Assembly: GCF_003585925.1 (NCBI RefSeq)
Contig: NZ_NRJH01000059.1
Location: 1-35,822, forward strand
Length of the DNA stretch: 35,822 nucleotides
From: Psittacicella melopsittaci
Lineage (GTDB): Bacteria > Pseudomonadota > Gammaproteobacteria > Enterobacterales > Psittacicellaceae
Direction: 5' to 3'
Both the position numbers and the translations under genes were made by a program. This document shows, one piece after another, positions 4,589 to 30,200 of the stretch (positions are counted from its first letter, which is position 1; each line of letters opens with the position of its first letter). The notes below the pieces were generated by a model that was not told the DNA's origin, did not search any database, and saw nothing but the letters and a program-made list of their open reading frames with translations.

Positions 4589-5866
4589 TTAAATAAACAT
4601 ACGCTGTACCATAGCTTGCTTAAACTCTTGCATATACTTAATTTGTTTATCTAATCTAATGTTTATATCTTTAAATAGCTGTAGTAAATTTACAATTTTC
4701 TTTTGTTCTTCTAAATCTTCAGGTAGTTGAACCGAACTCAGATTTAGATTAGATTTAGTAATGGAGTAAACCTTTATTCCTTGAAAATACGGGTGGATAC
4801 CATTTCTAAAGGAAGGAGAGTTTAAAACAAAGCCTAAAAACCCAGGATAAGTTTCTACTAACGGTCTTCCTGCATAAGTATGTTGGCCCGCAACTATGTT
4901 AACTCCATTTGTATTTTCTATCTCAATACATTTAGCTACAGAGAAGTCTTCTGCTGTATCAGCAAACACTACATCTCTATCTTGAAGAAGAGTCTTTTCA
5001 TATTTAGTAGGATCTGCATTTACAATGTAAGGAATATCTCTTTGCTGTGCATCAAGGGTAAAATTATACTTCAATAAAATATCACCATAGTGAATGTTTT
5101 TAACAGCTGTTTGCTCTTCTGTTAAATTATCTCTAGATAAAGAATTAGTACTAATTTTTAGATTAAATAGTGAAGAAAAAGTATAGGTGTTCCAAGGTTT
5201 ACTAAACTCTTTAAATCTCAAGTCAGGTATATTTGATCCTACAGGGAATAGATTTCTTACTAAGAATTTTTGAAGTTTTTGGAGACTCTCATGCTTAAGT
5301 TTTAATTGAGCAATAGAATAGTCGATATCTTTAAAGAAGTTACCTATTTTTTGTTGTTCTTCTAATGAAGGTAGATTAACTTTAATAAAGTTTAAACCAG
5401 AAACACTTATATGTCTAACGGTTGTACCTGTAATGTAAGGGTAAAAAGATTCTTTTTTTGCATTTAGTTGATAAGATAAGAAAGGTGCGTCGTAATCTTC
5501 TTTAACCGCCCCTATGATAACTCCACCTGAAGCTCTTACATTTTCTGCAACAATAGCACTAGCTGTTGCTAAGCCTAAAGGAGTTACATCAGAATCAGGA
5601 AACAGTAAAGAATTCTTAGGTATTACAGTTCCTTCATCATATTCTGTAAAAGTTTGGATTTGCTTTTCGGAAATAAAACCTTTATGGATATTAAAAAGAT
5701 CTCCATAGTGAATCGCTAAGTTACCTTTACCTTCAGTATTGAATTTATCTTTCTTTAAATCAGAACCTTTACTCCATTTACACAATTGCTTTAAAGTTTT
5801 TGTTTCCCAAGAATCGTTATATTCTGGAAATCTTAATTGCGGTACATGTAATTTTTTATCATTCAT
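4589..5866 (-). CDS. hsdS: Type I restriction-modification specificity subunit (solitary)
   Basis: HsdS recognises the DNA target of a type I restriction-modification complex, together with HsdM (methylase) and HsdR (nuclease). The 425 residues show the usual duplicated plan. It begins VPQLRFPEYNDSWE, then target recognition domain 1, then the spacer LPSLEEQQKIGNFFKDID with a helical stretch. A second start-like block follows (IPDLRFKEFSKPWN), then domain 2, ending LPEDLEEQKKIVNLLQLF plus a final helix. No hsdM or hsdR is adjacent; the flanks are an MFS gene and recD. The gene lacks the CTC-GA leucine codon context that is common in its neighbours, which suggests transfer. It may supply an alternative specificity to a system elsewhere or be a remnant. 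No inverted repeats pointing to a shuffling locus were seen. Confidence 0.9.
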   Translation of the reverse strand: MNDKKLHVPQLRFPEYNDSWETKTLKQLCKWSKGSDLKKDKFNTEGKGNLAIHYGDLFNIHKGFISEKQIQTFTEYDEGTVIPKNSLLFPDSDVTPLGLATASAIVAENVRASGGVIIGAVKEDYDAPFLSYQLNAKKESFYPYITGTTVRHISVSGLNFIKVNLPSLEEQQKIGNFFKDIDYSIAQLKLKHESLQKLQKFLVRNLFPVGSNIPDLRFKEFSKPWNTYTFSSLFNLKISTNSLSRDNLTEEQTAVKNIHYGDILLKYNFTLDAQQRDIPYIVNADPTKYEKTLLQDRDVVFADTAEDFSVAKCIEIENTNGVNIVAGQHTYAGRPLVETYPGFLGFVLNSPSFRNGIHPYFQGIKVYSITKSNLNLSSVQLPEDLEEQKKIVNLLQLFKDINIRLDKQIKYMQEFKQAMVQRMFI

Positions 5867-6194: not shown

Positions 6195-9161
6195 ATGGAT
6201 CAGATTTTTTATACCCTCCAACAAGAAAATAAACCTTTAACCCAAGTGTTATATCTTGAAGCTCGTAGGGCTTACTTACAACGCCAACTCGAGCCTATGT
6301 ACTTTAATGCCCTATTGACTGTTATTGACCTCGGGGGTAAGTATTTTAGTGAAGAGAAAAATCTGAGTGATCAAGAAACTTTCTTTTTGGCTTTTCTTTT
6401 TGCCTTATTAAAAAACCAGCATATTAATGCTAATACGGCAATTTCGACAGATTTTTTATTCCAAGTAGTTGAGTTATGGCAAAAATATCATCATCTTGCC
6501 CAACTCCTTGGTTGTTTTGTGCAAAAGTATACTTTTGAGCGAGGCGGAGAACTAGCACGTTCTTTTAAAAAAGTTCGTCTTGGCACTAAGGTCTCTTACG
6601 CTTGTCAAACTAATGCCTTTGCTGTAGATGTAGAAGAGTTACAATTTCTTGTGGCTAACTACTTAGAGCAAATTTATCTGCAAACGCAAGATAAAAATAA
6701 GATTTTTGCTCTGCTACAAGAACCAGTTGCCGACAATATTCTTGCCCAAAGATACCAAGGGCAACCTGAAGTTTTAGCTTTTGCGTATAAGCTAGCTAAT
6801 TACGTTTGGCTTCGCATTTTTGCTAACTATGCTACTTTAGTTAGTCAGAACCAAGACCTAGCCCCAGTATTAGCTGATGCAAAAATCTGGTATATCCCAG
6901 AGCCCGAAGAATTATATGCTCAGGTAATTACCTCGCTCGATGAAGAGTTAGGGCTGTTATTCCCTACCAGCGGACAAGATACTTTTGTGGGCTTTTTCTT
7001 GCAAAATCTTAGCTTACACATGGCGTTAATTCCTTACGCAGGACGTTTATGGCAAGAGCATGATTTTTGGCAACAACTTCCCCATCAAGCCCAGTATTGT
7101 CATGTTTTTGCTAGTAATGAGCGCTTAAAACAAGGACAGGGCTTAAATTACTTTGTTTTCCAAGAGGGCGAACCTAGTTTAATTAGCTTGGCTCAGCCTT
7201 ATGTTAAAGAAAGTAAAATTCTCGACTTTTTTATTCGTCGTTTTTATATGGGACGCGAAGAAAAAGAAAGCTGCAGTATTTTACATAAACTCGCTCAAAA
7301 AGCTAATTTGAGTTATGCGCAAGCGCAAGAAGAGCTCTTAGCTGCCATGGCTGAGTTCTTTTTACCTGAACAACGCGAGGGCTATGAACTGACTAACCAA
7401 GACTCAAGTAGTCTAGTGGCTGCAACTCAGCCTTTGAGTGTGTTAATCGGTGGTCCTGGAACAGGTAAAACTACCACGGCACGGAAGATGGCTTTTTATG
7501 CTCTGGGCTTGCGTTTATTATCCCAAAGCGAACCAGATTTTAGTCAGCTGCAAATGCTTTTACTTGCCCCTACAGGTAAGGCTGCTGCCCACCTTGGCGA
7601 AAGTATTAACCACAGCTTTGCTAAATTGCAAAGCCAAGAGGCAAAGATCGCCCATTTACTCACGCGTTTACAGGAAATATTTCCTGGCACTAATGCCATT
7701 TTTTGGCAAAAATGGCTCGAGGCCATTTTTCAAACGGGTAAAAATGCCGCAAATGCTACGTTACACCGAGCTTTAGGGATAAGTCCGCAAACTCCAGCAG
7801 GCAAAGAAAGCTATTTAAGAGCAGATCTAGTAATTTGTGATGAAGTGGGGATGATAAATCTCCATCTCTTTACCAGTTTACTTGAGGCTATAGCTCCGAC
7901 AACAAAACTTATTTTACTCGGAGATAAAAACCAGCTTCCTGCTATCGGAGAGGGCAATGTTTTAGAGACTATTTCTCATCAGCTCGCTCTCTGGCAAGGT
8001 AATGCTTCAGGTTTACGTGCTTACTCCCAGCAAGTGCAAGGAGCTCTTGCCTATGCTAAAACCTATGGGCAAGCTCTCGAGCAAAAGCAAGTGAGCCAAC
8101 CCCAAATTAGCGATTTAATTCACGAGCTCAATCGTTCTTTTCGTTATAAGGCGACGAGTTTAATTGCAGCCTATGCTGAGTTTATTAATCGTCAGTCTCA
8201 AGGCGAGCATCTGCTTTTTATTCAAGAGCAATTAAAACAAAGACGTGAGCAAGCGGATGTGGTATTTTATGCTTACGAACAAATGTTTGCCCGTTGGGGA
8301 GATATTTTTGCTCAGTATAAACCGCTAATTAAACTCGGGGGAGCAAAAAGCGATAACTTCTTTGCTTTACTCAGCAAGTATCCACGTCTCGAACGTATGT
8401 ATTTAGAGCAGGCTCTTGCCCCAAGTGACTTGTTTGCTCTGCAAGGCTTAAATATAACTCCTGATTTTCGGGAAAAAATGGCAAGCTATAGTGGTGATGC
8501 ACGGGTAATGCAAGCGGGTGAATATGCTACTTTTGTGCAAAATATGATTTTACGCAAGGCTTTACAAGCATTTTCTCCGTTGCTCGAACTAGGCGAGCAA
8601 GAAGTAACGCCTGAAGTTTTAGGGCAAGCCTTTGCGATTATAAAAAACAATCGTTTTCTTTCTCCAGTTAGAGAGGGAGAACTGGGGGTGGATACGCTCA
8701 ATAATCTGATGCACAGTAACGATTATTTTGCTAGTAACACCTTTTTCCCTATTGTAATTAGTAAAAATCAACTTGATTTAAACATTGCCAATGGGGATCT
8801 AGGCTTGGTAGTAAAACAAAGCAATGGCGTTGACTATGTTTACTTTGATCAAAAAGAAGAACAAGAGTATAAACGCGTACCTTTGGCCTTTGTGCAACAG
8901 TACGAAAAAGGCTTTTTTACCACCATTCACAAATCTCAGGGGGATGAGTTTGACCATACGTGCATAGTTCTTCCTCTTAAATTAACTGATTTCTCAATTT
9001 CCCGTAATATCCTATATACAGCTATTACTCGTGCAAAAGAGAAGTTAGAAATTTTTGCGCCTAGCGCTTATTATTACGAAAATAATTTTGTGCAAAACCA
9101 GCGCACAAGTTCTCTTCTTTACGCATGGAACCAATACTTAACAGAGGATAGCAGTGTCTAA
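6195..9161 (+). CDS. recD: RecBCD exonuclease V alpha subunit RecD
   Basis: RecD is the 5'-3' helicase subunit of RecBCD, which processes double-strand breaks. Superfamily 1 motifs occur in order. Walker A is GGPGTGKTT near residue 418, and Walker B is DLVICDEVGM near 545. ILLGDKNQLPAIGEG follows as motif III. FFTTIHKSQGDEFDH near 908 and NILYTAITRAKEKL are motifs V-VI. At 988 residues it is much longer than E. coli RecD (608). The surplus lies mainly in the long N-terminal region (about 410 residues before Walker A) and in insertions between motifs III and V, around residues 620-830. recB and recC are not in the window. The last eight bases overlap the next gene, so the two are probably co-transcribed. 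Function is sure; the role of the extra segments is unknown. Confidence 0.93.
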   Translation: MDQIFYTLQQENKPLTQVLYLEARRAYLQRQLEPMYFNALLTVIDLGGKYFSEEKNLSDQETFFLAFLFALLKNQHINANTAISTDFLFQVVELWQKYHHLAQLLGCFVQKYTFERGGELARSFKKVRLGTKVSYACQTNAFAVDVEELQFLVANYLEQIYLQTQDKNKIFALLQEPVADNILAQRYQGQPEVLAFAYKLANYVWLRIFANYATLVSQNQDLAPVLADAKIWYIPEPEELYAQVITSLDEELGLLFPTSGQDTFVGFFLQNLSLHMALIPYAGRLWQEHDFWQQLPHQAQYCHVFASNERLKQGQGLNYFVFQEGEPSLISLAQPYVKESKILDFFIRRFYMGREEKESCSILHKLAQKANLSYAQAQEELLAAMAEFFLPEQREGYELTNQDSSSLVAATQPLSVLIGGPGTGKTTTARKMAFYALGLRLLSQSEPDFSQLQMLLLAPTGKAAAHLGESINHSFAKLQSQEAKIAHLLTRLQEIFPGTNAIFWQKWLEAIFQTGKNAANATLHRALGISPQTPAGKESYLRADLVICDEVGMINLHLFTSLLEAIAPTTKLILLGDKNQLPAIGEGNVLETISHQLALWQGNASGLRAYSQQVQGALAYAKTYGQALEQKQVSQPQISDLIHELNRSFRYKATSLIAAYAEFINRQSQGEHLLFIQEQLKQRREQADVVFYAYEQMFARWGDIFAQYKPLIKLGGAKSDNFFALLSKYPRLERMYLEQALAPSDLFALQGLNITPDFREKMASYSGDARVMQAGEYATFVQNMILRKALQAFSPLLELGEQEVTPEVLGQAFAIIKNNRFLSPVREGELGVDTLNNLMHSNDYFASNTFFPIVISKNQLDLNIANGDLGLVVKQSNGVDYVYFDQKEEQEYKRVPLAFVQQYEKGFFTTIHKSQGDEFDHTCIVLPLKLTDFSISRNILYTAITRAKEKLEIFAPSAYYYENNFVQNQRTSSLLYAWNQYLTEDSSV

Positions 9162-11466
9162 AGCTAAATTCAATTCCAAGAAAATAAATCCGGTATTTGC
9201 CGAGCTAATTACCGAGTCCCAACTTGAGGATCTTAAATTAGCCTATGAAGAATCTGCCGATGCTGCTTACGAGCAAGTGCACGAACATCGTCGTTCTTAT
9301 GAACCACTTGATATAGAGAATCAGGTGTATATTATAAAAACTCTTAATGCGACGCCTTTACCTACGCTTGATGAGCTCTATAGTAATCTAAAATCAGAGG
9401 ATGAATACAACCGTAAACCTAAAGTTGGGGTTATTTTTGGTAAATTTTATCCCCTGCATCAAGGGCATTTATACATGATAGATCGAGCTCGCATTGAGTG
9501 TGATCTGCTTTATATTTTTGTTTGCTCAGATGAAAAACGTGATGAAAAACTTTTCTGGGATTCATCAATCCCCGTGCAACCAACGCGCGAAGTGCGAACT
9601 TCTTGGGTAAAACGAGCAACTTCTGCCTATGATAATGTTTTTGTTTTTAATCTGCGCGAAGATAATATTCCTTCTTATCCCAATGGTTGGTTTGAGTGGG
9701 CAAAAGTAGTAGATTTTTATTTAGGTCAACTTAAGTATCGCCCTGAGTATGTCTATACCTCTGAACCTCAAGATGCAGAAAACTATAAATACCATTTAAA
9801 TCTCGAGGCAATTCTTGTTGACCCATCACGCGATTATGTTCCTATTTCAGGAACCGAATGTCGTCGTAATGTTTTTACTAACTTTAACTATTTACCTGAA
9901 GTGGTAAAAGCAGATGTAGTGCTCAATATCAATCTAGATATAGATGATTTACTTACCTATTACGGCATCGACAAGAATAAAATAACTCCTGAGCTCGAAA
10001 ACATTGGCATGCGCTTACAGCACATGTGTCGTAACTATGGCTTTAACTTTTGTACGCCAATTCTCGATGACTTTAAGCAACAAAAAGTTAAATACTCTTT
10101 TGCTAATAATGGACCAGTAACTGTTACTTGGGGTAATCCAGCCACTTGGCATGATACAGCCCAAGGGCAACTTGTTCATCAGCTGGTAAAAAATACTGAA
10201 ACAGACAATCTTGCAGGGCATTCGGAGCAAGAAAAAGCGCAAGCTTTATTGCAAACTATTGCGGATCAACATCCTGAGCTGGCAACTAATATAGAGATTA
10301 GCCAAGAAGTTTTTGCTTGGTTCAATCATGCTATAGGTTTAGATGAGCGTTTACTAACTGCCAATGCCTTTAACCACTATACGGTTCGTGTTTTTAGTTT
10401 ACAAGATCGCAGTATTTATCAACCCGTTGACCAAGCGACGCGAGAAAAGAACTATCTTTATGCTCAAGAGCACAATTTGCCGTTTGATGAGGAATTAGGC
10501 GTTTACTTCCCGCAAGTAACAAGTTGGAGCTTAATTCGTCAAATAGTGCAAGCCCAAAATAATGAATATTATGTTGCTTGTGCTCTGCATAATAAGTTCC
10601 GTTACGTCGAGCATCTCGCACCTCTGTATCTGGGCGTAACCAACTATGCTAATCTCTGGCACCAAGAGTTAAACTATTTACCTACGGGCTTAAACTATAA
10701 ACTGTCGCCTGGTTTAAGTTATAAAGTAGGAATAGCTAAACTCGAGGATTTAGAGTTTGCTATAGTAACGGTAATTCGGACTTTAATATCACGCTTACAA
10801 GAGAGCTTACCGCATCCTTATGAGCCAATGATTTTAACCCGTCCATCTGAACAACGCATGCGTCGTCTTTACTATTGCATTAAAAAGCTCGAAAAACTTA
10901 CCGAAAACGCTACCAAGTTACAAGAGCTAGAAAACCTTGCCGAGCAAACCGAGGCAACTGCCAAAGCTGCCAACAAACTAAATGATGACTTAGACTTGAC
11001 CGCTGCTACGGCTGAGCAACAGCATTATCAAGAAGAGCAGGCTGCTAAAGCTGATGCCGAGGAAAAAGAGCGTTTTGCTAAATATGCCAATATTAAAGGT
11101 AAGTATAAATATGAACGCCAAGTACAAGCGCAAGTTGATGACCTTGAAAGTGAAATTCAAGCCTATATTAAAGAGCGCGAGCTAACAGGTATTCACTTTT
11201 TATACCGCCGACAAAACCCAACTGACCCAGTAGAAAGTAAAACCTATATTTTTAATCGCAACCAAGAAGATGATGTAATTCGTTCTAAAGAGGCAATTCG
11301 TTATCTTTCTCAGGTTTACATTAACTGGGTTGATCTTTATAGCTTTAAACTTCCTGGTTTTGGTTATATTACTCCAGAACCAAATAGTTTACCGCCTCTG
11401 GGACAAAGGGTTAAAACTAAACAGCGTGAACCGCGTCTGACCGATAAATGGGTAAAAGAGGATTAG
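9154..11466 (+). CDS. NadR-like NMN adenylyltransferase with unrecognised C-terminal half
   Basis: Residues about 88-265 form a nicotinamide-nucleotide adenylyltransferase domain of the NadR type. It has VGVIFGKFYPLHQGHLYMI (nucleotide-binding GxFxPxHxGH), YPNGWFEWAK, YTSEPQDAENY, VDPSRDYVPISG and the ISGTECRR motif at about 231-238. NadR of Haemophilus continues into a ribosylnicotinamide kinase domain that opens with a GGESSGKS P-loop. Here no P-loop occurs anywhere after residue 265. Instead about 500 residues follow that I do not recognise, including a Glu/Ala/Gln-rich probable coiled coil at about 575-680. The start is GTG at 9154-9156 with AGAGGA six bases upstream, overlapping the recD stop. 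Length is 770 residues against about 420 for known NadR. It probably makes NAD from NMN; salvage from ribosylnicotinamide would need another kinase. Confidence 0.8.
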   Translation: MSKAKFNSKKINPVFAELITESQLEDLKLAYEESADAAYEQVHEHRRSYEPLDIENQVYIIKTLNATPLPTLDELYSNLKSEDEYNRKPKVGVIFGKFYPLHQGHLYMIDRARIECDLLYIFVCSDEKRDEKLFWDSSIPVQPTREVRTSWVKRATSAYDNVFVFNLREDNIPSYPNGWFEWAKVVDFYLGQLKYRPEYVYTSEPQDAENYKYHLNLEAILVDPSRDYVPISGTECRRNVFTNFNYLPEVVKADVVLNINLDIDDLLTYYGIDKNKITPELENIGMRLQHMCRNYGFNFCTPILDDFKQQKVKYSFANNGPVTVTWGNPATWHDTAQGQLVHQLVKNTETDNLAGHSEQEKAQALLQTIADQHPELATNIEISQEVFAWFNHAIGLDERLLTANAFNHYTVRVFSLQDRSIYQPVDQATREKNYLYAQEHNLPFDEELGVYFPQVTSWSLIRQIVQAQNNEYYVACALHNKFRYVEHLAPLYLGVTNYANLWHQELNYLPTGLNYKLSPGLSYKVGIAKLEDLEFAIVTVIRTLISRLQESLPHPYEPMILTRPSEQRMRRLYYCIKKLEKLTENATKLQELENLAEQTEATAKAANKLNDDLDLTAATAEQQHYQEEQAAKADAEEKERFAKYANIKGKYKYERQVQAQVDDLESEIQAYIKERELTGIHFLYRRQNPTDPVESKTYIFNRNQEDDVIRSKEAIRYLSQVYINWVDLYSFKLPGFGYITPEPNSLPPLGQRVKTKQREPRLTDKWVKED

Positions 11467-12726: not shown

Positions 12727-14705
12727 TAAAAGCAGACAATATGAATATTTGGGTGGGCAAGCGCGAACTCTTGCACTCGCTCAACTTTACTATTAACCCT
12801 GGCACCAAAGTGGCTCTGTGTGGAGCAAATGGCACAGGAAAAACCACCCTTATGAATACTTTTAAGCTCGATGCCCAAGAGCGTAAAATGCAATTTGGCA
12901 ATAGCTTAGAAATAGCTCCTGTGCGCATAGCTTGGGTAGAGCAAGAAGTACCTAATACCGAGCAACAGGCTCTTGAATATGTGATTGAGGGGGATTTTGC
13001 TTATAAGCACTGGCAAGAGCAACTTAACCAAGCTCTAGCGAATAATGATCATGAGCTTATTGCCCAAGCTAATGCCAAACTCGATGAAATAGATGCCTGG
13101 ACTATACGTTCACGAGCGGCTGTAATTCTTGATGGTTTAGGCTTTAGTCAAGAGCAACAACAGCAGGCCGTTAACCAATTATCTGGGGGATGGCGAATTC
13201 GCTTAAACCTTGCTCGTGCTTTATTAGTTGCCAGTGATCTGCTCTTGCTTGATGAACCGACTAACCACTTGGATATAGATGCCGTTTATTGGCTCGAAGA
13301 CTATTTAAGTAAACGCTATCAAGGCACTATAGTTTTTATTTCCCATGACCAAGAGTTTATGGATAATTTGGCTGATCATGTTCTTTATATTGAACAGCAA
13401 ACTATAACTGCCTATACGGGTAACTACTCGGAGTTTATTAAACAAAGAGCCTTAAACCGAGAAATTCAACAAAAACAATATCTCAACCAACAAAAGCACA
13501 TTAAAAAAGTGCAAGAGTTTATTGAGCGTTTTAGATATAAAGCCCGCAAGGCAAGTCAAGCTCAATCGCGCATTCGTTATTTGGAAAAACTGGAAATTAT
13601 TGATCCAGTTGTAACGCAAAACCCTTTTGAGTTTAACTTTTTAGCGAGTAAGCGTTTACCTACAGTAATTGCGACAATTCGTAAGGCAAATATAGGTTAT
13701 ATTTCTGGGCAACCGGTATTAAAAGAAGTAAACTTTAGTATTACTCCTGGTACGCGCATAGGTTTACTGGGCTTAAATGGGGCTGGTAAGTCGACGCTAA
13801 TTAAAGCCTTTGCAGGTGAGCTTACTCCGCTTGATGGCGTAGGCACCATTCAAATTAATGAATTAGTGCAAATGGGTTATTTTAACCAGTATGTGGTAGA
13901 TAAACTCGATACTAATGCGAGCCCTATGGAATTACTCACGCGCCTAGATCCGCAGATTTTACCGCAAGATGCCCGCAATTTTCTTGGTGGCTTTAACTTT
14001 AGTGGGGATAAGGTATTTGAGAAAATTGAAAAATTCTCTGGGGGAGAAAAGTCACGTCTAGCCTTAGCTTTAATAGTTTATCAACGCCCAAATCTTTTAC
14101 TTCTCGATGAGCCTACTAACCACTTGGATCTTGATATGCGTCAAGCTCTAGCGACGGCCTTACAAGAGTTTGAAGGGTCGTTAATTGTAGTATCGCACGA
14201 CCGTTTTCTCCTTTCGGCAGTGGTGGAAGATTTTTATCTAGTACACGACCACAAGGTTGAAGAATTTGCAGGCGATCTCAACGACTACTATAAATGGGTG
14301 TTAAACTACAAAGCCCAAAAGCAACAGCAAGCTCCAGAAGTTAGTAAGGCATCTCCTAAGCTCGAGGCGGGCGATCCTAATCTAACCCCACTCGAACGCG
14401 TGCTTAAAGATACGCGATTAGCCCGCGAGTTAAAACGTTTAACTCTTAGTAAGAGCCAAGAACAAAACCGTCTTCTACAGCAAAGCGACAAATTAAAAGC
14501 TCGCTTACAACAAATTGAGCAAGAGTTTTTAGATCCTGAAGTAATGGCAAGTGCTGAAAAAGTAACTGCCCTAGCTCAAGAAAATAAACAACTGCAAGAG
14601 CAGGTCGAACAACTCGAAGAGCAATGGATGGAATTAGAAATGGAAATTGAAGAGATTACCCAAGAGTTTGTGGCAAAGCAGGAGTTAGCATGGCAAAAAA
14701 ATTAA
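12723..14705 (+). CDS. yheS: ABC-F ATPase, YheS type
   Basis: ABC-F proteins are soluble tandem ATPases that act on ribosomes rather than as transporters. The first cassette has GANGTGKT (about 34-41), signature QLSGGWRIRLNLARALL and LLLLDEPTNHLDIDAVYWLE. The linker carries the Arg/Lys-rich stretch RFRYKARKASQAQSRIRYLE. The second cassette has GLLGLNGAGKST, FSGGEKSRLALALIV and LLLLDEPTNHLDLDMRQAL. The C-terminal 120 residues form a Glu/Gln/Leu-rich coiled coil. Length (660) and order match E. coli YheS (637), including PNLLLLDEPTNH and VVSHDRFLLS. The start ATG overlaps the tyrA stop as ATGA, so translation is coupled. Its 3' end overlaps the next gene by 16 bases. Confidence 0.93.
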   Translation: MIKADNMNIWVGKRELLHSLNFTINPGTKVALCGANGTGKTTLMNTFKLDAQERKMQFGNSLEIAPVRIAWVEQEVPNTEQQALEYVIEGDFAYKHWQEQLNQALANNDHELIAQANAKLDEIDAWTIRSRAAVILDGLGFSQEQQQQAVNQLSGGWRIRLNLARALLVASDLLLLDEPTNHLDIDAVYWLEDYLSKRYQGTIVFISHDQEFMDNLADHVLYIEQQTITAYTGNYSEFIKQRALNREIQQKQYLNQQKHIKKVQEFIERFRYKARKASQAQSRIRYLEKLEIIDPVVTQNPFEFNFLASKRLPTVIATIRKANIGYISGQPVLKEVNFSITPGTRIGLLGLNGAGKSTLIKAFAGELTPLDGVGTIQINELVQMGYFNQYVVDKLDTNASPMELLTRLDPQILPQDARNFLGGFNFSGDKVFEKIEKFSGGEKSRLALALIVYQRPNLLLLDEPTNHLDLDMRQALATALQEFEGSLIVVSHDRFLLSAVVEDFYLVHDHKVEEFAGDLNDYYKWVLNYKAQKQQQAPEVSKASPKLEAGDPNLTPLERVLKDTRLARELKRLTLSKSQEQNRLLQQSDKLKARLQQIEQEFLDPEVMASAEKVTALAQENKQLQEQVEQLEEQWMELEMEIEEITQEFVAKQELAWQKN

Positions 14706-15676
14706 TCAGTTTAGCCCTGTTGCTGGGGTTAAGTTGCTCGAGTCAAGCTGTTACTTTAGTTACACAAAATAAGGTAATTGCCCAAATCGGGACAGATTTT
14801 TTATCGAGTCCTGAGTATATTCAAGCTATGCAAGGTGACAAAACGCGTTACCTTAAAGCCAACTTTGATCTAACGCGCGAAGTAGCAAGATTCTACCTCA
14901 AAGATCCAAGCCTCAAAGGTAACTTTCCTGCTAGTCCTTTTATGGACAACTTGTATAACTATGGCTTTTACTTTATGCAAAACCGCATTCGTGAGGCAAG
15001 TGTTGAGCAAAACCTGAGTAGCAATATTCCTATGGCGCTCGAGGCTACTAACTTAATTATCTATTTAAGTTATGTGGCTAAAGAAAATGCCTTAGCAGGA
15101 GCAAATCCTGATGGGCAAGTAGTGGTGGTAAGAGCTTATCGTAATTTCCAAAACTTTAACTTGCCAACTTTTATGGCACAGTACATAGCTTTTTGTAATA
15201 CTCCGCAAGCCCGCATAGATCGAGAAAAGCTTCCTCAAGTTTATAAGCAAGTAGCTCGTAAGGAGTTAACAGCCGAACAAGCCCAAGAGCTAGATAAATA
15301 TGCCCAAAACTTTAACGTTTTTATGCAAACGTCTTGTGATCAATTTGTCCAGTTTGCAACTGTATTTACTACTCCAGGTGCCGTTGAGTTTAATCAAGCT
15401 TTAAGTGCGTTTGTTTATACAGATAAAAGCCTTGCTACCCAAGTGCAAGATTACCAAAAAATTATGTATGGGCAACCTGACGCTCTGTATAAGGGAGTAG
15501 ACTTTAATAACGCCAACGCGCAAACCTTTAGTCAAGCTTATCTGAGCAATGGAGTTAATACCCCTGCAAGTTTAGAGACTCATAAGCAAGCTTACATTAA
15601 TTTTATTGCTAATCTCAAGGATAATCCTTTAGTGAAATTAGCTTTTTCTGCTGATATTAAAGTAGGGAATAACTAA
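14690..15676 (+). CDS. Secreted hypothetical protein
   Basis: I do not recognise this 328-residue protein. It starts MAKKLISLALLLGLSCSSQA, a clear Sec signal peptide with a likely cleavage after SQA at residue 20. The Cys at 16 is not in a good lipobox (GLSC). The mature part is mostly polar and looks helical, with scattered Asn, Gln and Tyr, two Cys near the middle (IAFCNTP and MQTSCDQF) and no known motif. A periplasmic location is likely. The ATG overlaps the end of yheS by 16 bases, so it is the last gene of the tyrA-yheS operon. It ends about 130 bases before a strong terminator. The reading frame, signal peptide and operon position make it a real gene; its function is unknown. Confidence 0.8.
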   Translation: MAKKLISLALLLGLSCSSQAVTLVTQNKVIAQIGTDFLSSPEYIQAMQGDKTRYLKANFDLTREVARFYLKDPSLKGNFPASPFMDNLYNYGFYFMQNRIREASVEQNLSSNIPMALEATNLIIYLSYVAKENALAGANPDGQVVVVRAYRNFQNFNLPTFMAQYIAFCNTPQARIDREKLPQVYKQVARKELTAEQAQELDKYAQNFNVFMQTSCDQFVQFATVFTTPGAVEFNQALSAFVYTDKSLATQVQDYQKIMYGQPDALYKGVDFNNANAQTFSQAYLSNGVNTPASLETHKQAYINFIANLKDNPLVKLAFSADIKVGNN

Positions 15677-19450: not shown

Positions 19451-19810
19451 TTTGTTTAAAAAAGGTAATGTTGAAGCTTGTCGTGAGTTTTTCCTAGGGT
19501 AATAATTAAGTTTATATAAAACAATTCTTTTTAATGTCGGCTTTATTTAGGCAAAAATCAAGCAAGCATGAAATGTTTTTTCTTAGTTTGAATTACAGTT
19601 TCTTGTGTTATTTAGGTAAAAATTAGTAAATAGTACTTTCAAGTGCTATATTTAAAGCTTTGTTTTATGGGAAAATATAGTAAAATAAGAGATGAAACAG
19701 AAATAAATAGGAATGGGTTATTTACCCATTTATTCCCTGGCATCTAAGTGCTTTAGCTAATCTAACAATAATTGGCGTTGTTATTTTGGGTTGGCGAGCC
19801 CAAATCTTTA
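19451..19810 (+). other. Autotransporter upstream region with two inverted repeats
   Basis: No gene is visible. A possible -10 (TAAAAT, 19681-19686) lies before an inverted repeat AATGGGT/ACCCATT (19712-19718 with 19724-19730). A second hairpin TTGGGTT/AGCCCAA (19786-19792 with 19797-19803, loop GGCG) ends seven bases before the chosen ATG, over the place where a ribosome binding site should be. Confidence 0.45.
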
Positions 19811-22800
19811 ATGAATATGAAAAGACACAAACTAAATAATTTAAACTCATCTCTTGTTGCCGTACTTTCAGCAACTCTCTTAGCTTCCTGTGGCGGCGGT
19901 GGAGGCGGCGGTTCTTCTTACACCTCAACAACTACAGCAAGTGGTTCAACAGCATTAAGTACTGTAAGTGTTACGCAATTAACCGCAGCTACAACTGGGG
20001 TAGCTACAGCAGATACGACCACTGCAACTACTAACCTTTCATTTAATAATGCAAGCGAAACTGTTACTAGCAGTGCAAATCTTTCTTATACCCAAACTCA
20101 AACTGCCAATAATCAGACTTTTACTAACAGTCACACGGCTGTAAGTCAAACCTATTTTACAGGTTGGCCAAACTCAACATCTAATGCAGGAGTAGCGGCT
20201 AGCTATAATAACCTCTTTGCTATGGGATTAATTCCTGTAGTATCAGGGCAATCAACAATTAACTTTTACATTCCAGTAACAGGTGCTTCAACCGAAACTT
20301 TTAATGCCAGTGCCACTTTTTCTACTGACGCAAGTAATTTCCGTGGTGCAGGCGTGAATGTGGGGATTATTGACGGTAGCTTAAATACTTCGCACACGGG
20401 CTTAAATGCTTCGAACTTTACGGTAGTTAATATTGCAAATCAATATACAGGTAATCCTGAAGCTGATGTCGCTCGAGGCGTTAGTTTAGACCATGGGACA
20501 AGAGTGTCTCTAATTCTTGCTGGACAACGTAATTCTACCTATAACGGTTTAGTTCCAGATGCAAGTGTTTACTATAATGTGCTTACGCAGTATACGTCTA
20601 ACCATCGTTTAGGTGACATTTATACAACAATGTATACCTACCGTCCTGCGGTAATTAATAACTCTTACTCTATTTCTTATACTGAAGAAAGCGAAACTAG
20701 TGAAGATCAGTTTGGGCAAGTACATGCTACGGCCTATGCTTCGGCACTAGCTGGTTTAAAAACTGTTACCGCCAATGCAGATACACCATTATTTGTTTTC
20801 TCTTCAGCTAACGCAGACTTTTATTCATGGCTCCAAACTCAAGTAGAGAGTGATGCCAACGCTTCTAGTTCAACTGACTGGAGTAGTGTATATTATGGTC
20901 CGCAACTAGATACTAATTCTTCGTTATATCAATTTATTAACGCAGATGAGAATATTGCTAATGCTCTTCTTGTGGTAACTGGTTATTCCTTAAATGTTGA
21001 CGGAAACTACGCTAATCTGCTCAATGCGACAAAAAATGCGGTTGTAGATACAGGTTTATCTACCACAGGCACAGGTTCGGCAGCCTTTTCGGCAGATCTT
21101 TTTGTTCCTGGAGTTTCAGGCAGTAGCAGTGATTTAAACAATGTCAGCGTAGCTTACCAATGTGGGGTAACTAAGTGGAACTGTTTAGCAGGTGCTTACC
21201 TTTGGGAAATAGCTAACTATTCAAGTGCTGGTAGTTTTGGTTTTGCTGGAACTTCAGCGTCTGCTCCACAAGTAACTGCAATCGCAGCAATGGTGAAAGA
21301 GCAGTTTGATTGGATGACTGCTAAACAACTAAAAACTACTCTTTTAACTACTGCTTATGACATAGGTGAAGCAGGCGTAGACTCTGTATTTGGTTGGGGG
21401 GTAGTAGATGCTTCAGTAGCTTTAAATGGTCCAGGGGCTTTTGTTTTTGGTGACTTTGAAGCAAATATTTCCAATACTAATAAACGTTACTGGTTTAACA
21501 ATAACATTACTGGTGCTTACGGTTTAGTAGTAAATGGTACTTCAAACCTTGATCAACTGGTATTAACGGGTGCTAACAATACCTACTCAGGTGATACAGT
21601 TGTAAATGGTGGGGCTTTAGTAATTCAAGACCAAAGCTCAGCTGGTTTTACTACCGCTAATGTAAGCAGTCGTGCGGCTTTAGTAAACAGTCATGTGTAT
21701 ATTAACTCAGACGGTAACTTCTACGCTTACAATGCTAATCTATCTAACGTAACTAACAATGGTTACACCCAATTTTACAATGTAAGCTTAACAGGTAACC
21801 TCGTTAACAAATATAACGCTACTTTAGCTACAAGTTTAACTAACCCAATTAACATTGCAGGTAATGCGAGCCTTAATGGTACTCTCTATATTCAAAATGT
21901 TGATAGTTATGTAACTACAGGTTCTACCAATAATGTTTCGGTATTAACCGCAAAAAACATTACAGGTAACTTTGAGAATATAGTTTCTGACTATGCAAAT
22001 TCGGCGTTAGTAAGCTATAGTCTCTTACAAAACTCTACTGCTGTTTTAGTAAGCGTAAATGCATCTAATGCTTCAACCTATGTTAACTCAGTTAGCTTAT
22101 CAGGAGTTGAGGCACAAGCTTATGCAGCAGGGGCAAGCCAAGTAGACAAACTTTTTGCGGCTGCTAATAGTCAAGCGACAACTGGTGTAGTGGCAGTTAC
22201 AGGGGCAACTGAAGTAAATACTTCTGAGTCTGTAGTAACTGAAAGCACTAATTTAGTTTTCACTTCTAGCTACTATAGTGATTTAGCAAATATTAGTGAA
22301 GAAGATTTAGATGCAGTAAGCTTAACTAGTGTTGGTACAGGTAGTACTACTTCGGCAGTAGTTTTAACTGCAGATGACACTTCAAGTGCTACTGATTCGA
22401 GTAGTACGGTAACTACGGCAAGTACAAGTGATACTGCAACAAGTAGCAGTGATACGAGCGCAAGTACAACTGACACAACAACTACAAGCGATACTACCGC
22501 AAGTACAGCTGACACTACAACAAGCACAAGAGACTCTGCAACAAGCACTAGCGATAGTGAAGTAGTGGCTGCAGCGGCAAGCTTACAATCTCTCACTGCT
22601 AGTGAGTTAAATGAAGTTCTTCTCCGTGCTTCAGGTACTATTTATAGCAACCTTCTGCAAGCTACTACGCAACAAGCACGTAGTCATCTTTTAACTTTTG
22701 CGGATCAGGCTTTAGGACGTTTTGCGACTCTAGATAATCAGTGGCATGCCTATGTTGACTTTGGTTACCGTTGGCAAGATTGGAAATCTAATGCAACAAG

Positions 22801-23572
22801 CTTAAAAGGTCATCTTGACTCTAACGCTTACACTATAGGGGCTTATACTCAAACTCTAACAGGCTACAACCTCGGGATAGCTGCCTATAGTCTCAATGGT
22901 AACTGGGACGAAGGTACAGCCGCTTCTGACTATACTGCAGGTGCTGCTAAAGTTAAATCCTTTGGTTTTAGTGCAAGTGTAGGTAAAGCTTTTGCTAATA
23001 GTTACTATGGGGCAACTCTTTATAGTAACTTTCACAACTTTGATGTAACCCGTAGCGTTTTAGACGCTTCTGACCAAAAAGTTGAGTTCAATGCTCAAAC
23101 CTTTGGTTTAGATTTAAGTGCAGGTTGGTTAGTTTTAGGTTCACAAACTTCTGGAGTTATTCTTTCTACAGGGGTAACTGCTGAGGCGACACACCAAAAC
23201 GCCTTCACGGAAACGGCAACTAACTCTGCTTCGCAAACTCTATCTTTAGATGCCAAAGCACGTTGGACAAGCCAACTTTACGCTCATGCTGGCATTAAAG
23301 CCTTTGCGCAGTTTAGAACCTTTGGTTATGCTTCTCAAGTTGATGCAAGCTTAAAATTCAGTGGTAAGGTTGCAGGACAAGACTTTAAACTCCGCTTAAC
23401 TGACGGTACGACCACAGGACAAGTATTTAACAATGACTTCCTTGCTCGTTTAAATCTTGGTTATAGTGTAAACTTAACCAATTCACTCCGCATACGTTTA
23501 GCTGGTAGTGTAGAAAAATCTTCTGCTTGGACAGAAAAAGCAGTTAATTTAGGACTTGATTTCAAATTCTAA
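19811..23572 (+). CDS. NalP-like subtilisin lipoprotein autotransporter
   Basis: This 1253-residue protein is a type Va autotransporter carrying a serine protease. The signal ends in a lipobox, LLASC, with Cys at residue 27, followed by seven Gly; a second ATG two codons later (19817) is equally possible. The S8 triad is visible: Asp188 in VGIIDGSLN, His228 in LDHGTRVS and Ser482 in GTSASAPQV. Next comes an autotransporter-associated strand motif (LTGANNTYSGDTVVNGGAL) and a beta-helix-like stretch. A Ser/Thr/Asp linker (about 850-920) follows, and then a C-terminal beta-barrel of about 270 residues ending LGLDFKF with the terminal Phe expected for outer-membrane insertion. Neisseria NalP has the same combination of lipid anchor, subtilase and barrel and cleaves other surface proteins. 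The gene precedes a giant adhesin gene and has its own terminator. Confidence 0.9.
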   Translation: MNMKRHKLNNLNSSLVAVLSATLLASCGGGGGGGSSYTSTTTASGSTALSTVSVTQLTAATTGVATADTTTATTNLSFNNASETVTSSANLSYTQTQTANNQTFTNSHTAVSQTYFTGWPNSTSNAGVAASYNNLFAMGLIPVVSGQSTINFYIPVTGASTETFNASATFSTDASNFRGAGVNVGIIDGSLNTSHTGLNASNFTVVNIANQYTGNPEADVARGVSLDHGTRVSLILAGQRNSTYNGLVPDASVYYNVLTQYTSNHRLGDIYTTMYTYRPAVINNSYSISYTEESETSEDQFGQVHATAYASALAGLKTVTANADTPLFVFSSANADFYSWLQTQVESDANASSSTDWSSVYYGPQLDTNSSLYQFINADENIANALLVVTGYSLNVDGNYANLLNATKNAVVDTGLSTTGTGSAAFSADLFVPGVSGSSSDLNNVSVAYQCGVTKWNCLAGAYLWEIANYSSAGSFGFAGTSASAPQVTAIAAMVKEQFDWMTAKQLKTTLLTTAYDIGEAGVDSVFGWGVVDASVALNGPGAFVFGDFEANISNTNKRYWFNNNITGAYGLVVNGTSNLDQLVLTGANNTYSGDTVVNGGALVIQDQSSAGFTTANVSSRAALVNSHVYINSDGNFYAYNANLSNVTNNGYTQFYNVSLTGNLVNKYNATLATSLTNPINIAGNASLNGTLYIQNVDSYVTTGSTNNVSVLTAKNITGNFENIVSDYANSALVSYSLLQNSTAVLVSVNASNASTYVNSVSLSGVEAQAYAAGASQVDKLFAAANSQATTGVVAVTGATEVNTSESVVTESTNLVFTSSYYSDLANISEEDLDAVSLTSVGTGSTTSAVVLTADDTSSATDSSSTVTTASTSDTATSSSDTSASTTDTTTTSDTTASTADTTTSTRDSATSTSDSEVVAAAASLQSLTASELNEVLLRASGTIYSNLLQATTQQARSHLLTFADQALGRFATLDNQWHAYVDFGYRWQDWKSNATSLKGHLDSNAYTIGAYTQTLTGYNLGIAAYSLNGNWDEGTAASDYTAGAAKVKSFGFSASVGKAFANSYYGATLYSNFHNFDVTRSVLDASDQKVEFNAQTFGLDLSAGWLVLGSQTSGVILSTGVTAEATHQNAFTETATNSASQTLSLDAKARWTSQLYAHAGIKAFAQFRTFGYASQVDASLKFSGKVAGQDFKLRLTDGTTTGQVFNNDFLARLNLGYSVNLTNSLRIRLAGSVEKSSAWTEKAVNLGLDFKF
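22370..22570 (+). repeat. Ser/Thr-rich low-complexity repeat in the autotransporter linker
   Basis: Imperfect in-frame short repeats encode runs such as TSDTATSSSDTSAS and TTTSDTTASTADTTTS. They lie between the passenger and the beta-barrel. Copy number could vary by slippage without changing the frame. Confidence 0.7.
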
Positions 23573-24239: not shown

Positions 24240-27200
24240 ATGAATAAGATTTTTAAACTAAAATTTAACCGTAAAACTCTGTCTTTGGATGCAGTGTCGG
24301 AAATTGCTACAAATAGTATGGCAGGTTCAGAGCACAGTAAAGCAGGCCAAGAACAAGAGCAAAAATTTACTTATAGTAAAGTAAGTAAATTACTAGGAAG
24401 CTTGTTGCTTCCGGTTACTTTAGCTGGAGTAGGGACAGCATACGCAAGTTCTTTATCGGAAGCTACGGTAATCAACGGTAAAGCGGCCGTAGTTACTAAT
24501 GGATTAGTAACTACCATTACTAATAGTAATGGCGCCATTATTGAATGGCAAAAATTTAACATAGGCACTAATGAGCTAGTTAGATTTATTCAAGAAAGCT
24601 CTAATTCTGCAGTACTTAACCGAGTGCTGGGCGGAAGCGTGTCGCAAATTCTTGGTACCCTAGAATCAAACGGTAAAGTATTTATCGTTAACCCAGCAGG
24701 GATTGTTTTTGGGGAAAACTCAGTTGTAAACGTACAGTCTTTAGTTGCCTCAACTCTTGATATTAGCAACGAAGATTTTATTAAAGGCAACTACGTATTT
24801 AACCAAGAAAAAGATCAGGCTATTGCAAGCGTTATCAACCAGGGTTTAATTAAAGTAAACGATGACGGTACTCTAGCTTTAGTGGGTGGTAAAGTAGTAA
24901 ACACTGGTGTCCTGGAAGCAAAAAATGGTACAGTTTACTTACTTGCAGGTCAGTCAATTACCATTCAAGATTTAGATAATCCATTAATTTCTTACAAAGT
25001 TACTGCAGACAATAAAGCAGTGAACCTTGGAGAAATTGTATCTAAACGTGCTTACCTATTAGCAAATAAAGTAGCAAATGGTTACACTTCAGCAGAACAA
25101 TTTGCTGATGTAATTTCAGCATCTGATTCAGCACGTAAAGCAACAATTAGCGCTAATGGTGAAGTTTTACTTTACGGTGCTTCTGAGTCAGATTTAGTAC
25201 AACAAACTAATTACAATGATGCTCAATTAGCAGCAAACATCTCTTGTCGCTCTGGTTTAGTGGTAGTTAATGGTACCGTGAACGCTTCTAATCTTACTGG
25301 CACTGCTGGTGAGGTTAAAGTACTTGGCGATGTTGTTGTTTTAGAAAATAATACCCTTATTAACGCCTCTGGACAACAGGGTGGAAAAGTGTATCTTGGG
25401 GGTGACTTAAAAGGTACAGGTGACTTAAAACTGGCGAATAAAACAACAGTTTTTAGTGGTGCTGTAGTTAATGTTTCTGGGACTTCAGGTGATGCAGGGC
25501 AAACTATTGCATGGGGTAACACCGGTAACTATGATGGTACTTTCTTAGCAACCTCAGTAAATGGTAACGGTGGTTTTGTTGAGACTTCAGGTAAGACTCT
25601 TAATCTAGGTGACAATGTTTCTGCCGATACTAGATCTGTATATGGTAATCTTGGTACTTGGTTACTCGACCCAACTTCGGTATTAGTTATTAACTCTACT
25701 CCGAACTGGTCAATGATTAATGCGAGAACTAGAGCAGGTTATTCTAACGCTGATATAGTACCTATGACGAGCAATGTTTATCGTGATTCTGACGGTAATG
25801 CCGCTCACCCATATAGTACCTATTCAATAGTTACGGATGCAATGATAAATAATTACCTATCAAAATCTTCGGTAACTATTATTGCTACTACCCAGCTTCA
25901 ATTCTACTACGCGAATGTTACTTCGACTAATACTAGCTCTAACCTTTATCTGCAAGCGAGAGTTAATATTCTTTGGTATTCGACGATTAATATTGCAGCA
26001 GACGTAAGCTTTAATAACACTGCCGTAGCTACTTCTTCGCTTGGGATGACTAACTCAAGTATTATTGCTCGTTCGGTTACATGGCAAAACCAAACCGGTG
26101 GCAAGCTTGAGATTTTTAACTCTTCGATAAATGTAACTAATAGTATTAACTTTAATACTTCTTCATTTATTACCTTAGAAAATAGTACATTTAATGCAGG
26201 GCAAAATATTTACCTCAGTGCTCAAGGAACTATTGGTAATTTAACTTCACTTAACTCGAGCTTAAGTGCTGGTGAAACCTTATCTTTACACGGTAAGGAC
26301 TTTGTTAACTTAACTTGCGCGACTGCAAATAGCAACAGATATTCTGGTAAAACCATTAGTATTACCAGTGATGCATGTATTTCTATAGACGGAGCAACCT
26401 TAAACTCTTCTGGTAATACAAGTATTGTTGCTAATAACACTAGCGGGGTAATTAGTATTACTAATACTAATAGTACCCGTGCTGGCAATCTTAGCGTTAG
26501 TGGTTCTCAGGTTAACCTAAATAATTACAGCGTAAATAATGTAAGTGGTATTGCTTGCATTACGGTAACAACTAACCGTAATACTACAGTTACCGATCTT
26601 AAATTTAACAATGTTACTAATGCTAATTTAGGTATTACAGGTGGTTCTTTAATCCTTGAAAATGCGAGCTTAAATGGTAATTCTACTTCTTGTGGTACTT
26701 TAGTCTTAAGAAATCTCGCTACAGGAACTGATGCCTCTAACTTTACTTTAAATAATTCAACAGTAAGTAACTTTAGTGTAGGTACAAATCGCACAGGTAC
26801 AGGCACCTATAACTTAAATCTCAACAACACTACTTTTAGTAATGCTGTAGATGTTAACTTCTCGGTAAACAGTGCAAGTAGTATAAATGCAACTAACTTT
26901 AACGTTACTGCTTCTGGTAACTACAGCGATGCTTTTGTAGAGAAAAACTACCAAGGGGTAAATGTTAGTGCAGCAAATATTACCCTAAATACAAGTAAGA
27001 GCAGTAAGCAAAACTTTAATAATGTTACATTTAAAGCAAGCAATAACTTTACTGCCTGTGCAACTTGTTCAACTCTAGCTACAGATGTTACCAACTTTAC
27101 CAATGTAAATATTAGTGCAGGTGATCAAGCTACTCTTAACTGGACTAATACGCCAATTAACCTGACTAATGTAAGCATTAAAGCATCTAATAATGCTACA

Positions 27201-30200
27201 GCTAATGTTACAGTACCTGCTGCTTCAACAGACAATGCTGAAAGTGCAACTGTAATCAATGGCTTTAACTTAACTTCAGATAATAAACACGCTTACTTTA
27301 CTCTCGAAGGTACAAGTGAAACAGGTCCAGCAACTAACTTAACTTTAAATCAAGTTAACCTTAAAGCAGGACAAGTAGCTCATATAGCTGCGACACGTTC
27401 TTCTTCTGGAGCTGATGTTACAATTATTCTCAACAATTCGAGTGTTACAGCTGGAGGCAATGCGAATATTTACAATAACCTCAATGGGGCACTTATTGTA
27501 AACGCAAGTAAAGTTAATGCAGAACGTATTGTTACTCGTACCCAAAATGGACAAAACATTACGCTAAATAGCTCGAATTTTGTTTCGACTTTAGCAGCAG
27601 GGCAAGATGGTGAAATACCAGCAGTGCTCTTTGCTACTGACGGTACATTAAATGTAGTTAACTCTAGTGTAGTAGCTAATGCCAATATTAAGTTAGGTGG
27701 AGATGGTGCATTCAAAGCTGTAAACGTAGTTAACGGCTCGAACATAGCTTCTACAGGTGCCAATGTTACCTTAACAACCGTTTGTGCAACTGAGGCAGGA
27801 ACTACTAGTATTAATTTAACCAACTCAACCTTATTTGCGGCAAATCATGTAACTCTTTATCAAAACACCGAAGAGTTAAATGTTTCAGGGTCGAACCTAA
27901 CAGCAACGCAAGGTAATGTAGTTGTTGAAGCTCATACAGGTAATATTGCTTTAAATGCGACAAATATTTCTGCTGGACAAGCATTAACTATAAGCTCTGG
28001 AGCTGCCACTGGTGGTTTACTAAATGTAAGTAATAGTAATATTGCTTCAGGTTCAGGTGATGTGAATCTGCAAATTGGTAATACTAGCACGATTAATTTC
28101 ACTGACTCTAATGTAGCTGCAGGAGCTAAACTAAATGTTTCTTCTGCTTACGTTAATGTAGATAAAGCGAATCTAACTGCCAAGACAGACCTAAACTTAG
28201 GTAATGCTTCTACGGTTAATACCAGCATAGTAGCAAGTAATCTTACAGCTACTTCAGGTAATGTAAGCGTTGGGGTACAAGACAATCTAAGTATAGCTAG
28301 TACTAACTTTACTTCTGGCTTAGACTTAAACTTAACTTCAGCTCAAGGTAATGTAACTATTTCTGGCAATAAGCTTAGCTTTACTGTAGGCCGTGATATT
28401 AATATTACCGCAAGCAATGTTGTGCTAGAAAATGCAACTCTTCATGCACAAGGTAATGCAACTATTAATAGTTCGCAAAATGCAACTCTAGAGAACTCTA
28501 GTTTCACGGCAACGCAAAACACGACAGTTAAAGCAAAAACTCTAGCTAATATTAGTAACACTACTTTATCTGGAGCAAGTGTAATTGCACGTGCTGCAAC
28601 AATTAATGTAACTAAAGGAGCTATCTCAGCGACTACAACAGAGATCTCTTTAGGTGATGCAGAGACAAGTAATGTAAATCTTAACTCAACGAGTTTAACT
28701 ACTACAGGTACGAATACAGATATTAATGTACGTGGTAATGCTAATGTTAATTTAACTAACACTAGCGTACATTCTTCGCGTGATCTAAACTTATCTTCGC
28801 CTCAAGGTAATGTGGCTGTAAGTAATGGTTCATTACAAGCTGATCGTTCAATTAACATTACTGCTCCTAACCTAAGTTTAGCTGACAATGCTACAGTAGC
28901 TGCTCCGAATCTAAGCTTCACTACAACCAACTTTAATGTAACTGACGGAGCTACTTTAACTGCAAAAAACAATGCGAGCATTAGTGCAACAGAAATTAAT
29001 GCGACTAACTTAAAAGTTACTGCAGACAATGCAAGCTTAAGTGCAACTAATGTTACTTTAGCAGGCGGTTCTGTAAGTGCTACAAGTGGTGTAAGTGTAA
29101 CGGCAAGTAACAATTTAAGCTCAAGCTCTTCTTTAGTTTCAGAAAATGGTGACACTAAAGTAGCTGGTAACAATGTAACTCTGACTGGTGGTGAGCTAAA
29201 AGGTGCAAATGTTAACGTTGTTGCGGAAAATAATACGAGCATTACTGGCGTAAACCTAACTTCAACTGCAACTCAAGATGGTCAAGTAGTTGTTAAAGGT
29301 AAGTCAACGAGCATTAACAACAGCAATATTACAGCTACGGGTAGCAATAGCTCAGTAGACGTAATTGCGACCTCAGGTAATGTAACTGTAGTTAACGCAA
29401 ATACTACGCAAGCTTCACACCTCAATGTTACAGGGGCAAGTGTAAGCTTAACTAATTCTACCTTAAAAGGTGATGATACAGGTAGAGCGGTAATCAACGC
29501 TACTAGCGGTGATGTTACTTTAAATGCAACCAATGTTACTAACTATGCTCCAACTACAATTAGTGCAGCAAAAGGTAACATCACTTTAGAAAACAACTCT
29601 AAAGTAGAATCTAACTCAGATCTAACTTTAAGTTCTGGTGATAAAGTTACAGTTGCAAACTCTACAGTTACTTCAACAGCTAAAACTGGTAATGTAAGTA
29701 TCTCAAGTCCAAATGCTACAACTTTAACTAATGCTACAGTTTCTGCAAATGGTAATGTAAGTGTAGATACAACAAATGGTAATACTACCGTAACTGGTAC
29801 TAAGATCAATGCTACAAATGTATCTGTAACTGCATCAAATAATGTAAGTGTTACTGGTTCTAACCTAACTGCAACAGCTAGCAAAGACGGTCAAGTTGTT
29901 GTTAAAGGTAAAGAAACTAGCCTAGATAACACCAACATTTCTGCAACTTCAGGTACAAATGCCTCAGTAAGCTTAATCGCGGAAAATGGTAATGTAAGTG
30001 TTGCTAACTCAAGTACAACAGGTGCATCTAACTTAAATGTTACTGGTACTAACGTAACTTTAACTAACTCAACCTTCAAAGGTGACGACAATGGCACTGC
30101 TGTAATTAACGCTACTAATGGTGATGCAACTCTAAACGGTACAAGTGTAACTAACTATGCACCAACAACTATTAGTGCAGCAAATGGTAGCATCACTTTA

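Follow-up and report, generated by a model that had tools for sequence, protein, structure and literature searches.

NadR proteins couple two steps in the salvage of nicotinamide adenine dinucleotide (NAD). Two domains with Walker motifs are described for them in the accessible text of one report (PMC7221760). According to the accessible part of a 2014 paper, Haemophilus ducreyi, among the Pasteurellaceae with NadV/NAMPT salvage, uses NadV, has nadR and nadN as pseudogenes and an intact pnuC, and its nicotinamide mononucleotide (NMN) adenylyltransferase is called unidentified (PMC4081464). The window analysed here, that is the whole stretch of 35,822 nucleotides from Psittacicella melopsittaci (contig NZ_NRJH01000059.1, positions 1 to 35,822 of the forward strand), carries at 9154..11466 on the forward strand (stop codon included) a NadR-like gene whose product is a real, conserved and lineage-specific variant of NadR. 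On balance, and judging from sequence, we read it as a kinase-less NadR-type NMN adenylyltransferase (NMNAT), extended by about 510 conserved residues, which likely finishes NadV-based salvage of nicotinamide.

Comparison with the described systems indicated both kinship and departure. With NadR of the TIGR01526 type (H. influenzae, PDB 1lw7), the Psittacicella protein shares the NMNAT half, including the HxGH and ISxTxxR motifs; by contrast, it lacks the kinase half, bears orphan residues in its place and begins with an 88-residue N-terminus before the NMNAT domain. It also shares this half with the enterobacterial NadR that has a helix-turn-helix (NF005988), whereas its residues 1-88 (9154..9417; the five sequences agree at 25 of the first 60 positions) gave no helix-turn-helix family among the four Pfam matches obtained up to E 1, and the kinase half is lacking from this comparison too. 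The likeness to H. ducreyi, as far as the accessible text of that paper goes, consists of a NadV-type gene together with an altered NadR, but Psittacicella keep the NMNAT half, now linked to new sequence, and gave no PnuC match, while nadR is a pseudogene and pnuC intact in H. ducreyi (PMC4081464). Lastly, a fold-search match entitled bifunctional NMNAT/ADP-ribose pyrophosphatase in PDB (2r5w) likewise has an NMNAT fused to another domain; the C-terminal region of the Psittacicella protein, however, matched neither Nudix nor any other Pfam family at E ≤ 0.001.

Starting at GTG, the open reading frame (ORF) specifies a protein of 770 residues, and AGAGGA, which resembles a ribosome-binding site, stands 5 nt upstream of that start codon (9143..9148). 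A sequence-only reading of the window had claimed an unusual NadR-like frame here, nearly twice the usual length, with intact NMNAT motifs and no P-loop, and all of this was borne out. Indeed, the best NadR match in each of 81 genomes of the sister family lies in a frame of 369-480 residues, and among the NadR matches listed from 295 genomes of the order, frames of 764-785 residues occurred in Psittacicella only (n = 4). The NMNAT domain spans residues 89-256 (9418..9921), with 122 of 168 positions invariant, and contains HQGH at residues 102-105 (9457..9468) and ISGTECR at residues 231-237 (9844..9864). These correspond to HxGH and ISxTxxR, which we take to be the usual names of NMNAT motifs, and both were present in five of five family members; a P-loop of the form G-x4-GK[ST] was found in none of the five. 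The best NCBIfam match of this half, NF005988 (NadR), covers residues 84-258 only, or profile positions 59-233 of 411 (150.9 bits, cut-off 201, E 5.6e-44), and TIGR01526 covers residues 90-254, or profile positions 2-160 of 325 (128.9 bits, cut-off 341.15, E 2.4e-37); both alignments leave out the kinase half of the profile, and neither of these full-length NadR cut-offs is reached by the 770-residue protein. H. influenzae NadR (1lw7) aligned over residues 89-251 (E 4e-39), and the nucleotidyltransferase domain PF01467 scored 32.6 bits, above its cut-off of 21. The protein is predicted to be an active NadR-type NMN adenylyltransferase.

Residues 257-770 (9922..11463) stand where NadR has its ribosylnicotinamide kinase, and profile searches, sequence searches and hhalign all left them as an orphan region. 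In hhalign, NadR kinase domains (n = 4) aligned with the C-terminal profile at a probability of 0.1%, the NMNAT half taken from those proteins giving 100% (E 3.3e-41) as a positive control; the kinase profile was made from four of six NadR loci (L005, L006, L008 and L009), L007 and L010 being left out. A diverged kinase was rejected at the sequence level by hhalign and motif search, and of the two alternatives offered by the sequence-only reading, that of a new region joined to the adenylyltransferase is favoured from sequence, in line with relatives that all have the same length and architecture. The region was compared with about 5.8 billion proteins using three queries, namely the C-terminal region, a five-row alignment and the core of the member that diverges most; two of these searches scored the roughly 8,000 candidates with the most words in common with the query and the third scored 249, so that more distant relatives may lie below their sensitivity. 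Each query returned the same five proteins: the window's own, three from named Psittacicella, and P0006, for which no species is given. The same architecture, which the sequence-only reading had suggested seeking in related genomes, indeed occurs in three further Psittacicella genomes and in P0006. The closest protein relatives are those of Psittacicella gerlachiana and P. hinzii, and the NCBI names are "adenylyltransferase/cytidyltransferase family protein" for two relatives and "hypothetical protein" for one. Two peptide patterns run against the contigs of 84,980 species retrieved the three named Psittacicella loci only, and the C-terminal profile run against 394 genomes of the order retrieved the four Psittacicella genomes at E ≤ 2.7e-257. 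Seven of the 394 genomes, outside the genus, gave matches at E 0.011-0.088 that we take as chance, the matches being short and scattered and three of the seven having internal stops.

Nothing recognisable was found within the region, as the first reading of some 500 residues devoid of familiar motifs had proposed: neither Pfam nor PHROG matched it at E ≤ 0.001, the best PHROG match outside the nucleotidyltransferase families being at E 0.0086, and its profile had no match among PDB sequences up to E 10. An XPC-binding match (Pfam) in three of five members, at best E 0.0024, was not believed (14.7 bits in the window protein, cut-off 26.4). No internal duplication was found, nor any kinship of the region with NMNAT, RecD, NadV or the neighbouring 328-residue protein. 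Viral contigs, phages and plasmids held no match, and a phage or plasmid origin was rejected on that account; recently acquired foreign DNA was rejected as well, G+C content (0.399) and that of third codon positions (0.327) in the C-terminal part resembling those of neighbouring genes.

The region is conserved. Four conserved blocks were delimited, with 177 of 330 positions invariant in the five sequences: block 1 (residues 257-335; 9922..10158; 43/79 invariant), block 2 (residues 381-421; 10294..10416; 25/41), block 3 (residues 456-580; 10519..10893; 69/125) and block 4 (residues 661-745; 11134..11388; 40/85). Variable linkers separate them, including residues 581-660 (10894..11133), with 20-78% identity to the relatives and helices modelled at low confidence. 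The ratio of nonsynonymous to synonymous differences (pN/pS), from three pairwise DNA comparisons that left out P0006, which has no DNA, was 0.08-0.20 in block 3, compared with 0.12-0.17 in the NMNAT domain, and reached 0.22-0.41, 0.09-0.30 and 0.14-0.32 in blocks 1, 2 and 4, respectively (0.09-0.41 over these three). These ratios and the conserved blocks point to purifying selection on the C-terminal region, strongest in its core, and thus to something other than a decaying remnant. Structure prediction was less informative, whether from the five full-length sequences (model 1, mean predicted local distance difference test score, pLDDT, 42.9) or from the C-terminal region alone and without alignment (model 2, 38.2), both scores being poor and giving no usable fold. 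With model 1, of low confidence, the fold search placed NadR and other nucleotidyltransferases on top and was uninformative on the C-terminal half; with model 2, at that pLDDT, no PDB match was obtained at E ≤ 0.001. Both models are mostly helical at low confidence. The coiled coil that had been read from the sequence, of which the variable stretch 581-660 forms a part, stood in part: residues ~566-676 were modelled as long helices, and the low confidence keeps the support partial.

NAD genes were then compared in four draft Psittacicella genomes (that of the window, G000, of 2.29 Mb, and G001, G002 and G003; completeness 86-92%). PnuC (PF04973), NadC (PF01729) and a NadR with its kinase were each found in none of the four, and a NadV/NAMPT-type gene (PF04095) in all four, in line with the effect on NAD salvage predicted by the sequence-only reading. 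A separate ribosylnicotinamide kinase, which that reading had proposed looking for along with PnuC, was not seen either in the four drafts. TIGR01526, which does detect kinase halves on their own in further genomes of the order (e.g. G262, G291), gave just the NadR-like protein in each genome. PF13521 gave six matches in the four genomes, of which five were scanned: the best in each genome was dTMP kinase over cut-off (4/4), the fifth was a 290-residue P-loop protein of G003 (L022 1483-2355) that is weakly dTMP-kinase-like (32.3 bits, cut-off 83.25), and the sixth was C10 of G000 (22 bits, below cut-off). Regarding NAD synthetase, PF02540 gave 11 partial matches of ~30-35 bits, over the Pfam cut-off of 21, whereas the full NadE of G007 scored 250 bits. 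The best match per genome was GuaA (G000, G003) or MnmA (G001, G002) instead of NadE, and no complete NadE was seen in the four drafts, four of the 11 matches having been identified.

No NadD was seen among the PF01467 proteins of the four drafts. Besides the NadR-like protein, these included HldE, over cut-off in all four, a protein of RibF size in all four, and CoaD in three of four. The small ones (G001, G002, G003), considered as NadD candidates, were CoaD as judged on matched pieces; among those of RibF size, considered likewise, the one in G000 was RibF (matched piece), the other three being judged by length only. The 770-residue NadR-like protein was thus the only NMNAT candidate seen in these drafts. 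The PF04095 proteins, one per genome in open frames of 480-503 residues, scored 607-620 bits against NF006629 and exceeded its cut-off of 405 in all four genomes. The one in G000 matched in PDB a "Pre-B cell enhancing factor related protein" (E 4.5e-135), presumably a NAMPT relative by its nomenclature, and chains named nicotinamide phosphoribosyltransferase from E 1.4e-120. By this match to NAMPT, the NadV-type protein would prefer nicotinamide.

The sister family offers a contrast. We infer that it is Pasteurellaceae because its NadR proteins resemble that of H. influenzae. NadR was over cut-off and covered nearly the whole model, kinase included, in 81 of its 81 genomes, compared with 64 of 295 genomes of the order over the full-length cut-off, and PnuC matched in 80 of 81, two of them in pieces. 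PF04095 matched in 48 of the 81, 44 of them at E ≤ 2.1e-27; these 44 are called NadV-like here on the score and length of the PF04095 match rather than on individual scans. PnuC had no match in G215 and was in pieces in G349 and G401, where the split in G401 could reflect a contig break, and all three genomes have a NadV-like match and a NadR kinase. They are possible intermediate stages in losing the nicotinamide riboside route, and an order of NadV gain, then PnuC decay, then kinase loss fits them. PnuC was missing or split in three of 44 NadV-like genomes and in none of the 37 others, numbers too small for significance.

From a mechanistic point of view, gene content together with established knowledge of NAD metabolism leaves nicotinamide to NMN to NAD as the only visible route in Psittacicella. 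NadV would convert nicotinamide to NMN, and the NMNAT of the NadR-like protein would then convert NMN to NAD, thereby completing a salvage in two steps. By supplying NMN inside the cell, NadV may have made the riboside route (PnuC and kinase) dispensable, with both lost thereafter and the NadR-like protein left as the only NAD-forming adenylyltransferase, probably an essential one. The kinase was likely lost because nicotinamide appears to be the source of NAD in Psittacicella, with nicotinamide riboside apparently out of use, and the loss is well explained by such a route. Precedent is provided by H. ducreyi, with its NadV and nadR pseudogene, in the accessible part of that work (PMC4081464).

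Several observations weigh against this reading. The drafts are incomplete enough to make each single absence weak, CoaD itself being missing in G000, and NadC was below cut-off in two comparison genomes too, so that its absence is not special. Seven of the 11 PF02540 matches, three of the four proteins of RibF size, C10 of G000 and the 290-residue protein of G003 were left without identity, and the NCBIfam name of the NadV-like protein is "nicotinate phosphoribosyltransferase". The 44 NadV-like genomes of the sister family still keep a kinase-bearing NadR, so that NadV by itself is not what brings about loss of the kinase. Over the whole C-terminal part, pN/pS was 0.16-0.37, mostly above that of NMNAT, with synonymous sites near saturation. 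Moreover, a regulatory role for this part, discussed next, is conjectural, as are the activity and any partner of the protein.

That role is the weakest part of the proposal and our best guess, to be held tentatively: the C-terminal region may fold as a domain and regulate the adenylyltransferase, for instance by sensing NMN or NAD or by docking NadV, and would thereby replace the control exerted by the kinase or helix-turn-helix parts in other NadR proteins. The main rival holds that NMNAT is fused to another enzyme, of a novel kind, whose substrate would be NMN, NAD or some metabolite close to them. The invariant block positions, which include many His, Cys, Asn, Arg, Glu and Tyr, and the strong purifying selection on block 3 would suit it, but no catalytic motif or family was recognised and invariance across five related proteins cannot tell catalysis from binding or folding, and we regard it as unlikely. 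Less probable again is a ligand-free spacer or assembly module, such as an oligomerisation arm for NMNAT; stretch 566-676 is helix-rich and partly variable, as such an arm might be, whereas the blocks beyond it are conserved far more than a spacer requires. Least probable is the old ribosylnicotinamide kinase, swollen by insertions, deprived of its ATP site and diverged past sequence recognition: the region sits in the kinase's place, and the adjacent RecD of this genus likewise exceeds the length of its family model, so that proteins here can expand, but the hhalign result, the absence of even a relaxed P-loop in four of five members (the sole relaxed match, in P0005, not being conserved), ~510 residues against ~165 kinase positions in TIGR01526, and mostly helical models, albeit of low confidence, make it unlikely.

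Beyond the regulatory reading preferred here, it is conceivable, though we would not yet wager on it, that residues 257-770 represent the first examples of a new domain with a ligand or reaction of its own, fused to the lineage's only NAD-forming enzyme and arisen as the riboside route was discarded. If true, NAD synthesis would here be controlled or extended in a manner not seen before, and a new domain on what is apparently a lineage's sole NAD-making enzyme deserves to have its structure solved. All 81 sister-family genomes examined retain the kinase; a lineage free of kinase and PnuC that keeps NMNAT, with ~510 conserved residues attached, lets the contribution of the kinase half be tested in nature. 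Should the Psittacicella protein prove active, it would also show that a kinase-free NadR can perform the step left open in H. ducreyi, as given in the accessible text (PMC4081464). In the literature searched, no title on Psittacicella or Psittacicellaceae concerned NAD, subscription journals, with their probable species descriptions, lying outside the search; likewise, no such protein appeared among the matches listed for NadR architecture, kinase loss and NadV, and prior notice in subscription journals is possible.

The neighbourhood of the NadR-like gene holds nothing pointing to NAD. The gene overlaps an upstream recD-like gene by 8 bases and is followed by genes for a prephenate dehydrogenase and an ABC-F-type protein; three relatives show ORFs of similar size arranged in the same order, RecD being the neighbour identified, in two of them. 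Psittacicella RecD exceeds the 597 positions of TIGR01447, with 988 residues in the window (6195-9161), 1065 in L048 (4034-7231) and 1242 in L049 (3476-7204); TIGR01447 is the best match of all three, yet they remain below its cut-off. At the corresponding place in L050 (1966-6378) lies an ORF of 1470 residues, assigned by position only. A type I restriction specificity subunit-like gene (PF01420) was found at 4589-5866, and none of the other nine window proteins in the same Pfam scan belonged to a restriction or methylase family. At 14690-15676, a 328-residue protein had no Pfam match at E ≤ 0.01 and no NCBIfam match at E ≤ 0.1; in P. gerlachiana its place is taken by an ORF just as long. Finally, a subtilase-family protein of 1266 residues (19772-23572; PF00082, E 2.6e-21) lies 5' of a giant open frame of at least 3861 residues (24240-35822) that runs off the contig end, and whose last part contains a 273-bp tandem repeat (34653-35805, 4.2 copies), as large repetitive surface proteins do.

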